From: Candidatus Omnitrophota bacterium
Lineage (GTDB): Bacteria > Omnitrophota > JACPQZ01
Reading direction: 5' to 3'
Length of the DNA: 8,699 bases
NCBI GenBank assembly: GCA_016190205.1
Contig: JACPQZ010000020.1
Location: 1 to 8,699, forward strand
Part shown: positions 1 through 2,751 of the stretch, in pieces
How the letters are laid out: the number at the start of each line of letters is the position of its first letter
How positions within the stretch are numbered: the first letter of the stretch is position 1
Notes under the pieces: generated by a model
What the model was told of the DNA's origin: nothing
The model's database searches: none
The model's input: only the letters and a program-made list of their open reading frames with translations
Program-made: the position numbers and the translations under genes

Positions 1-811
1 GAATACGGTACCAACCGGATAATTGAGAACGGATCTCACATTTTGTCCCCTCATGGAGGGTAAAGGCCACCTGTTCTTTCTCGGCAGGGGCATACCGGAC
101 CAGGGCACTGGGGGTGATCACAATGGCCTCATGACTCCTTGCGCGTGCCACTTCTACGCCGGTAACAGTAAGCATCGAGACTAGAACGAGACCCAGCATC
201 CACAGAAAAGGCCGGAGACGCCCGCCCCGGCTGGATGAATAGAAGCCGGGCCGGGGCCCGCGGATCCTGGCGAGAGATAGTTCCAGAGCGGCGAAGGCAA
301 AAAATACAAAGTAAACGATCGTAGTCGCGTGCACGCAGCCTTCGACGCTCCACAGCGCGAAAAATTCGTCCGCCTTCCTGGCCCAGTAGCCCGAGCCCCG
401 GGGGGTGATCTTGTCTTTGAGCCGTGTCTTCACCCAATCCAGGTTGGTCCGCGTCAAGGAGTCCAGAGGGTCCAGCCGCAGGGAGCGTTCGTAGTTGAGG
501 ATGGCGCGGCCGGGCCTGCCGGACTTAAAATACGCGTTCCCCAAGTTATAATGCACCGCATTGCTGGACATCTCCTTTGCCAGGATGTCCTCATAGTGGC
601 GCGCAGCTTCTTCATATTGACCCTGCGCATAGGCCTCGTTACCCTGCCGAAACAGCTCGTCAGGCGTTTCGGCCCGGGCAACCGAACACATGAGAAGAGC
701 GCACAACGTCATTGCGAGGACCCCGAGCGTAGCGAGGGGGACGAAGCAATCCCTTTTGAGATTGCTTCGTCCCGCTTCGCGGGCCTCGCAATGACAGGGG
801 TGCCGCGTCAC
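1..811 (-). CDS. batE: BatE-like TPR/SH3 membrane protein, 3' end beyond the window
   Basis: The reading frame runs off the left edge, giving at least 270 residues. Numbered from the GTG at 811, it has a signal-like hydrophobic run at about 24-44 with a likely cut after ARA (45-47). Two TPR units follow at about 51-84 and 84-117 (with YNLGNAYF), then two transmembrane helices at about 163-181 and 201-219. An SH3-like region starts near 227 (VRYAPAEKEQVAFTLHEG) and reaches GWYRI at the edge. This is the usual BatE layout. Two starts are possible. The GTG at 811 forms a GTGA overlap with the batD stop and has GGAG 8 nt upstream. The ATG at 712 lies in the end of a palindromic repeat, has no clear ribosome site, and gives a signal peptide with no positive charge before its core. 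I favour the GTG, which means the repeat is translated. Confidence 0.85.
   Translation of the reverse strand, partial: MTRHPCHCEAREAGRSNLKRDCFVPLATLGVLAMTLCALLMCSVARAETPDELFRQGNEAYAQGQYEEAARHYEDILAKEMSSNAVHYNLGNAYFKSGRPGRAILNYERSLRLDPLDSLTRTNLDWVKTRLKDKITPRGSGYWARKADEFFALWSVEGCVHATTIVYFVFFAFAALELSLARIRGPRPGFYSSSRGGRLRPFLWMLGLVLVSMLTVTGVEVARARSHEAIVITPSALVRYAPAEKEQVAFTLHEGTKCEIRSQLSGWYRI
708..795. repeat. 88-bp palindromic REP/MITE-like element at the batD-batE junction
   Basis: The ends are a perfect 12-bp inverted repeat: GTCATTGCGAGG at 708-719 and CCTCGCAATGAC at 784-795. Inside is a perfect 14-bp inverted repeat, GGGACGAAGCAATC at 738-751 and GATTGCTTCGTCCC at 760-773, with an 8-nt loop. 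Each arm between the two stems can fold on its own: CCCCGAG...GAGGGG around 721-738 and CCCGC-TTCG-CGGG at 771-783. The whole can form a three-armed cruciform. It starts 12 nt after the batD stop and runs into the batE signal region. I recognise the end and centre sequences as a dispersed palindromic type found in many environmental genomes. There is no transposase, so it would be non-autonomous. Only one copy is in this window, so its dispersal in this genome is not shown here. Confidence 0.85.
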
Positions 812-2751
812 AGCTTCTTCTCCAGGGCCCGCAGGATATGACGGGCGGTCTTTAAAGTCTCGTCCATGTCCTGGGGCGAAGCTGTTAGTGAGGCGTAACG
901 CCCCGTGTCACATGTGATCAGGCATTCCTTCAAGAGCTCAACGGTCTCTTCCTCAAATCCCTTCACCCGCATGTGCCCCAAGACCGTATCCACACTCAAG
1001 CCCGCGATGGGCAGGTTTAACTTGTCGCCGATGTACTGGCGGATGGCCTGGCTGACCGCGCCGTAAAATCCGACTCCGTCTCCCCGCTCGAGCGCCCGGC
1101 GGGCTGTGCCCAAATGGCGGTCGGACATACGCCTGGCCCGTTCAAGCCGCGCCAGGGCCGGGTTGCGCCCCAAACGCTCCCGCCGCCGCGTCCAGACGAG
1201 CACGCCCAGGTAAGCGAGCACCGGAAGCGCGTGGATCCAAAGATAAAACGGCCGTTCATAAAGCGGGGCCGTCTTAGGTCTCAAGCGCCCCAGATCCTGC
1301 CGGATGTACTGGATATCCATCCCCAATAACTCGATCTCCTGCTGGGACCCCTGCGTCCGCGCCGCGGCCGAAACCTGCTCTTCCACCGGACCCGGTTTTA
1401 CCTTCAGGGCGAATCCGCCCGTCTTTTTATTCCTGTACGTCCCGCTCGCAGGATCAAAATAGGCAAACTCAAAGGGCGGGATTTCATAGCTCCCCTCCTT
1501 CTGCGGGATCAGCACCTTTTCATAGGCCTTTTCTCCGATCACGCTCTGCTCAAAGGTGTTGACGTCCGTCGTTGTGCCGGAGTCATAATACTTGAAGCCC
1601 TCGAGCCTTGCCCACTTGGGTTCCTGCACGGTCTGGACATTTCCTTCGCCGAACACTTTTAGCTTCAAGGTCACCGGCTCATTCTCCTCCACTTCCTGTG
1701 TGTCGATGTGAGCCGTGATATCAAAGTCTCCCACAGCCCCTGTGAAGTGCTCGGGCTTCCCCTCCTGCGGAAAATCCTTCACCTCGACCGAGATGGGCCT
1801 GGTGGCGAGGCGGCGCTCGACGGACCGCGTCAGCGTCCTCCCCCAACCCGCGAAAAACGAATCATTAAAGAACTCATCGAAGAAAGGATCCCGCTCCCGG
1901 ACGCTCACCTGCGCCACGAGTATTCCGGGATCGATCGCGAGCGTGCCGCTCTTGGTCGGGAAAAGGGCGACTCTTCGCACATCCGCCTTGACGAAATCCC
2001 GCCCCTGAATGCGGACCCGTTCGGTCTTGAGCTTTTTTTCGGGAGGAAACTCCTCCTGCCAGAACCCCGTGAACTTAGGATCTTCGGCGAACTCACGGAT
2101 CGAGGCCTCCAGACGGGTGTATACCGTATAGGTGAGGAGGACCTGCTCGTTCACGTAGGCCTCCGGTTTATCCACCCAGGCCCGGATGAATATGTCCCCG
2201 CGCTCGTACTCGAACTCATTGAGCTCCGGCGGCTGCGGCACTGCCGGCCCCGCGGCCGGAGGCCTTGCGGGGGTCTGCGGCGGGGTTCGCGGGGGGGCAG
2301 GCCCCGTTCGCGGCGGGGCAGGCGCGACCCCGCCATCCAGCACCTCAACCGTTATGGGATCCGTTTTGTAAACGGATCCGTTCGCCTGGACCTCCACCGA
2401 GGGGATCGTAAAAACACCGGGCGCATGGGGCACCATCACGAAGGTGAAACGGGCGCTCGACCGCATCTGGCCATTCACAATGGATATGTTGGTGGAGCTC
2501 CCCGCCGAATAGATCGTGAAAGAATCGAGTTCGGGGGGGGAAGGCCGGGTGACATTACGGCCCCCTCCCGAGATCTCGATCGTATAGCGGAGCTGATCGT
2601 CCAGGGAAATCCGGCTTGAATCGACCATGGCCCTGACCTGAAGCGCCGCCCATGCGGACGGCAAGACAGACCCCATTGTTACCAGACAAAGGATGAAACC
2701 CGTAACTCGCATCCCGCATCCCGTATCCCGTATCCCTTTGTTCCTCACCAT
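808..2751 (-). CDS. batD: BatD-like large exported and membrane-anchored protein
   Basis: This 647-aa protein has a signal peptide with a hydrophobic core at about 18-31 and a likely cut after AWA (33-35). Several exported beta-sandwich domains follow (about 36-140, 180-325 and 335-455), with a Pro-rich linker at about 144-176 between the first two. A transmembrane helix lies at about 502-520, ending in WTRRRERL, and a cytoplasmic helical domain covers about 530-640. BatD-like marks include NEQVLLTYTVYT (201-212) and the Phe-rich DPFFDEFF (288-295). The C-terminal domain mirrors that of the 331-aa protein encoded upstream. I prefer the ATG at 2751, 2 nt after the batC stop and 9 nt behind GGAGAAGGA. 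A TTG at 2760 and an ATG at 2712 are also in frame. The N-region is encoded by a 7-nt tandem repeat. Likely role: scaffold of the Bat complex across the inner membrane. Confidence 0.92.
   Translation of the reverse strand: MVRNKGIRDTGCGMRVTGFILCLVTMGSVLPSAWAALQVRAMVDSSRISLDDQLRYTIEISGGGRNVTRPSPPELDSFTIYSAGSSTNISIVNGQMRSSARFTFVMVPHAPGVFTIPSVEVQANGSVYKTDPITVEVLDGGVAPAPPRTGPAPPRTPPQTPARPPAAGPAVPQPPELNEFEYERGDIFIRAWVDKPEAYVNEQVLLTYTVYTRLEASIREFAEDPKFTGFWQEEFPPEKKLKTERVRIQGRDFVKADVRRVALFPTKSGTLAIDPGILVAQVSVRERDPFFDEFFNDSFFAGWGRTLTRSVERRLATRPISVEVKDFPQEGKPEHFTGAVGDFDITAHIDTQEVEENEPVTLKLKVFGEGNVQTVQEPKWARLEGFKYYDSGTTTDVNTFEQSVIGEKAYEKVLIPQKEGSYEIPPFEFAYFDPASGTYRNKKTGGFALKVKPGPVEEQVSAAARTQGSQQEIELLGMDIQYIRQDLGRLRPKTAPLYERPFYLWIHALPVLAYLGVLVWTRRRERLGRNPALARLERARRMSDRHLGTARRALERGDGVGFYGAVSQAIRQYIGDKLNLPIAGLSVDTVLGHMRVKGFEEETVELLKECLITCDTGRYASLTASPQDMDETLKTARHILRALEKKL
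817..823 (-). promoter_or_regulatory. ribosome binding site supporting the GTG start of batE
   Basis: Read on the minus strand, GGAGAAG lies inside the last codons of batD. The GGAG is 8 nt before the GTG at 811, whose GTGA overlaps the batD stop. This spacing fits coupled re-initiation and is far better than anything ahead of the ATG at 712, which is preceded by repeat sequence. The purines also encode batD residues, so chance cannot be excluded. Confidence 0.55.
2357..2379. repeat. perfect 10-bp inverted repeat inside batD
   Basis: GGATCCGTTT at 2357-2366 is followed by a 3-nt loop and AAACGGATCC at 2370-2379, a perfect 10-bp stem. It falls in the BatD codons for a segment around VYKTDP, at the end of the first exported domain and ahead of the Pro-rich linker. 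There is no U-rich run after it on either strand, so it does not look like an intrinsic terminator. It could simply reflect codon use, or cause a transcript hairpin. Confidence 0.5.
2695..2736. repeat. 7-nt tandem repeat in the batD signal-peptide region
   Basis: On the minus strand six 7-nt units follow one another: GGGATAC, GGGATAC, GGGATGC, GGGATGC, GAGTTAC and GGGTTTC. The first four (2709-2736) are nearly identical and the last two are decayed. Because 7 is not a multiple of 3, the units are read in three successive frames, encoding residues 6-19 of BatD just before the hydrophobic core of the signal peptide. Adding or losing a single unit would shift the frame of batD unless translation began at an ATG inside or after it, such as 2712. 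Confidence 0.8.

Follow-up and report, generated by a model that had tools for sequence, protein, structure and literature searches.

A REP/RPE-like palindrome probably inserted within the signal peptide of BatE and read in frame in a Candidatus Omnitrophota bacterium

To our knowledge, most known cases of palindromes inserted in frame come from Rickettsia, and whether the insertion sites in these bacteria are hotspots or were inherited is an unsettled question. The Rickettsia elements RPE-4, RPE-6 and RPE-7 contain an ATGAC motif, are inserted in frame and share their insertion sites among orthologues (PMC3767692). The CGTC-tagged REPs form head-to-head pairs with stems that start with AT, and some of them are intragenic, with the caution that many REPs located at N-termini may be annotation artefacts (Di Nocera et al. 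2013, PMC3733652).

The case described here comes from a window of 8,699 nucleotides, the whole stretch of DNA that was analysed, which is contig C9 of a draft assembly (76 contigs, 1.65 Mb) of a Candidatus Omnitrophota bacterium. The minus strand of the window encodes a Bat operon that consists of MoxR, DUF58, a short unassigned protein, BatA, BatB, a TPR protein, BatD and BatE; Pfam matches were used to identify the operon, and the names BatB and TPR/BatC were assigned solely by gene order. The batD gene (PF13584; 808-2760, minus strand) ends with a TGA (810-808) that overlaps the start of a gene for a TPR-domain protein (2-811, minus strand), the 3' end of which is cut off by the contig end. 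By Pfam matches and gene order, this protein, located 3' of BatD within a MoxR-DUF58-BatA/B operon, is BatE. In batD, the n-region itself harbors a short tandem repeat, GGGATACGGGATACGGGATGCGGGATGC (2706-2740), that reads GIRDTGCGMRVTG in frame, ahead of the hydrophobic core, and similar strings, with 3 mismatches, are found at four other places in the genome. At three loci from other genomes (L207, L209 and L210 in G147, G200 and G239), open frames of 880-920 aa extend over batE, suggesting a one-frame batD-batE fusion.

Between the batD stop and the body of batE lies an 88-bp dispersed palindrome (708-795, minus strand) with the outer ends GTCATTGCGAGG...CCTCGCAATGAC, a head-to-head pair of GTC-tagged stem-loops that is free of stops in the batE frame and corresponds approximately to residues 6-34. 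The outer arms (708-726/777-795) are 89% complementary and the inner arms (735-751/760-776) 94%; with the unit structure delineated by eye from the genome copies, the two ATTGC...GCAAT stem-loops map to 711-750 and 761-792, the latter followed by a GAC tag. The repeat is present at 17 loci in the genome, that is, this one and at least 16 more, some of them partial, and the copies, most of which are intergenic, share the same ends but have variable interiors, so that full copies range from 74 to 260 bp. Among 28 copy-strand readings of the repeat family, the L-A-M-T reading is open in 15 and the R-N-D reading in 8, whereas the third reading always ends with TGA, so openness is a further filter. 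The element has no match in Rfam, and no target-site duplications were seen in the copies from this genome; a two-base target duplication, which would make the insertion 90 nt long, was considered and received no support from the other copies. No related elements were found in plasmids or in viral contigs, the latter scanned with one exact pattern; as for closer relatives, the class is represented by this genome alone, and a contig scan gave only two distant matches, from Eremiobacterota. Elsewhere in the genome (L075, contig C15), the gene for a DegT-like aminotransferase has a copy across its 3' end, which apparently provides its C-terminal residues and stop.

Upstream of the element, the batE frame reaches a GTG (809-811, minus strand) that overlaps the batD stop as GTGA and is preceded, at a distance of 8 nt, by a Shine-Dalgarno-like GGAG (820-823, minus strand) within the last batD codons. 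The 99 nt from this GTG to an in-frame ATG borne by the element (710-712, minus strand, in CAATGAC) contain no stop and translate as VTRHPCHCEAREAGRSNLKRDCFVPLATLGVLAMTLCALLMCSVARAETPDELF. We read 158 batE loci across the phylum, 139 of them usable for a start-codon count, and in 110 of these 139, the start codon and the batD stop share bases as xTGA; 103 of the 110 are open in the batE frame. Strong Shine-Dalgarno words lie ahead of 61 of 107 such overlapping starts as against 8 of 107 at a control position 60 nt upstream. Because the GTG is located outside the element and conforms to this phylum-wide rule, it is best seen as the inherited start of batE rather than one provided by the repeat. 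A previous sequence-only reading of this DNA had recognized the 88-bp stop-free element and the overlapping GTG with its GGAG, in frame through the repeat, and the sequence bears out both; by contrast, the accompanying statement that the start codon comes from a repeat in either case is not supported, and ATG712 is not the only ATG, given that another follows in frame 21 nt downstream. A signal peptide starting downstream of 712 in relatives that lack the element would have spoken against the proposal, but the usual start in those genes is at the batD stop. It was also correctly noted that removal of the 88 nt breaks the frame (88 mod 3 = 1): a clean removal leaves the GTG off frame by one, which implies that a small indel either accompanied the insertion or arose later.

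When the 5' end of batE at all 158 loci was scanned for palindromes of the pattern GTCA...TGAC, with the set gathered regardless of phase, six batE genes in five genomes were identified: the gene in the window (G000), G382, G171, G039 (two loci) and G179, where the distance from the start codon to the element is 16, 12, 19, 23 and 18, and 38 nt, respectively. The lengths of the six elements are 70, 70, 88, 104, 113 and 117, not all of them multiples of three; nevertheless, all six are in phase and free of stops, and they follow the charged n-region and precede the hydrophobic core. The chance of phase in all six is (1/3)^6 = 0.0014, a post hoc value that treats the cases as independent. Each of the six inserts is multicopy within its own genome. 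The encoded N-termini read MKRN-element-CCSNCITTFAMIFILFF in G382, MKISDV-element-LIFSTLIFMVHC in G171, MRRFGKP-element-WFFFSSLC at the first G039 locus and MKIERIVLMLKK-element-AVAMVYLCICF in G179; the second bat locus of G039 gives MTKRCN-element-TNILFVLFFFALLC and carries a repeat of the GTCATTGCGAG type, as in the window.

Repeats also occur at several other batE junctions. A junction palindrome in G031 was not counted because it lies upstream of the gene's own ATG and n-region and hence is intergenic. At L157 (G229), another palindromic repeat, CCCCGTTAGACCTT...AAGGTCTAACGGGG, of which that genome has 24 matches, extends in frame over the batE start codon. The batD-batE junction of L012 (G040) has a GTAGGAGCGGCC...GGCCGCGAAC palindrome that resembles a GTAG-type REP and is in frame in the batE n-region, with a GTG preceded by GGAGG ahead of it. 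At L009 (G007) and L019 (G013), short repeats (GCCATGCGC-like, or AAAGTGCCTAAAGT) make up the open frame upstream of batE and are a possible source of start codons or hydrophobic stretches.

In-frame elements are found in other genes as well, and since these were detected via an open-frame search, they serve as illustrations of the phase argument and not as tests of it. In this genome, the gene for a cytochrome c assembly protein (PF01578, contig C27) reads MHSKRSA-element-RVPILRLALAMTVLAASFAWSS in frame, with GGGGAG upstream of its ATG, and in the gene for a carbohydrate-binding, probably secreted protein (PF21582, contig C62), the repeat immediately precedes the core; an NMT1-type binding protein gene of G382 has an in-frame element in the same layout as the cytochrome c assembly protein gene. 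The xseA- and glmU-like genes contain in-frame copies near the N-terminus, where a downstream start is possible. A yqgF-like gene of G039 (L274) is likely to start at the terminal ATG of an GTCATTGCGAG-type element (MTQILGIDYGTKR; MTQILGIDYGTKRIGLA), in which case the start is supplied by the repeat. G179 has an in-frame element of the family at a mid-gene position in miaB, which leaves no room for an alternative start. With this copy and with all six insertions in batE in phase, it is very probable that the element in the window is translated in the batE frame, as the sequence-only reading had proposed, and that it separates the n-region of the BatE signal peptide from the hydrophobic core.

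Alongside what is directly observed, namely, the repeat, its open frame, the conserved overlapping start and five parallel in-frame cases, we consider it likely (probability of about 0.8) that a REP/RPE-like palindrome was inserted inside the Sec signal peptide of BatE and is read in frame from the overlapping GTG. Under this scenario, a non-autonomous CGTC/ATGAC-type palindromic repeat would have landed in batE some five codons downstream of the start, after the n-region and before the hydrophobic core; ribosomes that terminate on batD would restart at the overlapping GTG and pass through the element in frame; pre-BatE would gain approximately 29 residues; and the extra residues would be lost with the removal of the signal peptide, leaving mature BatE unchanged. 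From the sequence features we infer that BatE is translated, exported and cleaved. The suggestion that the element serves as the signal peptide stands in part: it forms the middle portion, and VPLATLGVLA may yield a longer hydrophobic stretch, but the hydrophobic core and c-region, LCALLMCSVARA (671-706, minus strand; from translation and hydropathy, with a putative cleavage site after A-R-A), are host-encoded. The in-phase insertions presumably survive through selection against out-of-phase ones rather than through any benefit.

The principal competing explanation, in our estimate an unlikely one, is that the element is untranslated and supplies a new start, the terminal ATG712, so that BatE would begin with MTLCALLMCSVARA. 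All elements of this type end with ATGAC, and their ATG is in frame with batE in five of the six cases; furthermore, the yqgF-like frame of G039 appears to use such an ATG, and REPs at annotated N-termini are suspected to be untranslated (PMC3733652). However, the ATG of the G179 element is off frame and so cannot be the start of that gene, and initiation within the elements leaves the phase with the upstream start in all six cases unexplained. Moreover, neither Lys nor Arg precedes the core in the form starting at ATG712 or in the short forms tested for the other genes with inserts, whereas all 102 insert-free relatives have Lys or Arg before the core, with a net charge of +1 or more. In the predicted fold, ATG712 is fully paired (unpaired probability 0.00) and the region of the GTG is partly open. 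Taken together, the n-region charge, the pairing and the out-of-frame ATG of G179 favor read-through from the GTG over a start at ATG712, and the repeat-given start allowed for previously loses ground accordingly.

Still less probable is that the element, as an RNA hairpin between batD and batE, chiefly modulates coupling, mRNA decay or the batE level, with the reading frame being incidental. The element indeed has a very stable predicted fold (-79 kcal/mol compared to a shuffle mean of -50, z -7.0), with the base abutting a ribosome positioned on the batD stop, and REPs have been discussed as post-transcriptional elements (PMC3733652). Nevertheless, no hairpin is conserved at this junction across the phylum, the majority of the 145 junctions that were folded being without one, and this role does not predict the in-phase pattern; a hairpin function could exist in addition to the translation of the element. 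That batE is decaying, or that the locus is misassembled at the repeat, seems to us very improbable. This is one of 76 draft contigs, batE runs off its end, and repeats are assembly hazards; yet the element is internal, batE keeps an unbroken frame as far as the contig end, the remainder of the bat operon is likewise intact, and parallel cases come from independent assemblies.

Turning back to insertion within a translated signal peptide, one gene has taken up at least six insertions, which belong to four or more repeat types and lie at nearly identical functional positions; this points to tolerance by this part of the host protein rather than to common descent. Conceivably, although we would place this somewhat below even odds, mobile palindromes in the phylum generally find a safe harbour in signal peptides, in the interval that separates the n-region from the core, where inserts would be kept whenever in phase because the extra residues are discarded with the signal peptide. 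If so, signal peptides would be a recurrent entry port of repeat DNA into coding sequence. For annotation, N-terminal translated-repeat extensions such as WIPAFAGMT and SFASLRMT are easily dismissed as artefacts, but some of these appear to be real parts of preproteins.

How close the described systems come to this case differs between them. As in the CGTC-tagged REP superfamily, a C/TGTC tag followed by an AT-starting stem is present at the outer ends (CGTCATTGC on one strand and TGTCATTGC on the other), the two ATTGC...GCAAT units are arranged head-to-head with the tags outermost, and some copies are intragenic; the end of a CGTC-REP read in reverse gives ATGAC. Instead of a stem of 8-9 bp with a loop of 4-5 nt and a CCA-like tail, however, the element has a 5-bp outer ATTGC/GCAAT stem and a long variable interior, and the copies that we read have no CCA tail and a central joint of the CTC/GAG type. 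The Yersinia RU-2 repeat in YPO1552 (Delihas 2007, PMC2759123) is a single locus, whereas the insertions described here are recurrent in one conserved gene, with the host n-region and core kept on either side. RPE-4, RPE-6 and RPE-7 (PMC3767692, PMC2229807) are likewise short palindromes with an ATGAC end motif that are found in frame in protein genes, with different repeat types close together in the same orthologous gene. In-frame insertion into functional protein genes is seen here at the sequence level, in batE, in other genes and in the middle of miaB. RPEs reside in solvent-exposed parts of mature proteins, whereas the present insertions are in the coding region of a signal peptide, in another lineage and six times in one gene of a phylum. 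Judged from the sequence, the batE case is the same kind of event as the known in-frame repeats, in another lineage and at a part of the protein that is discarded after export.
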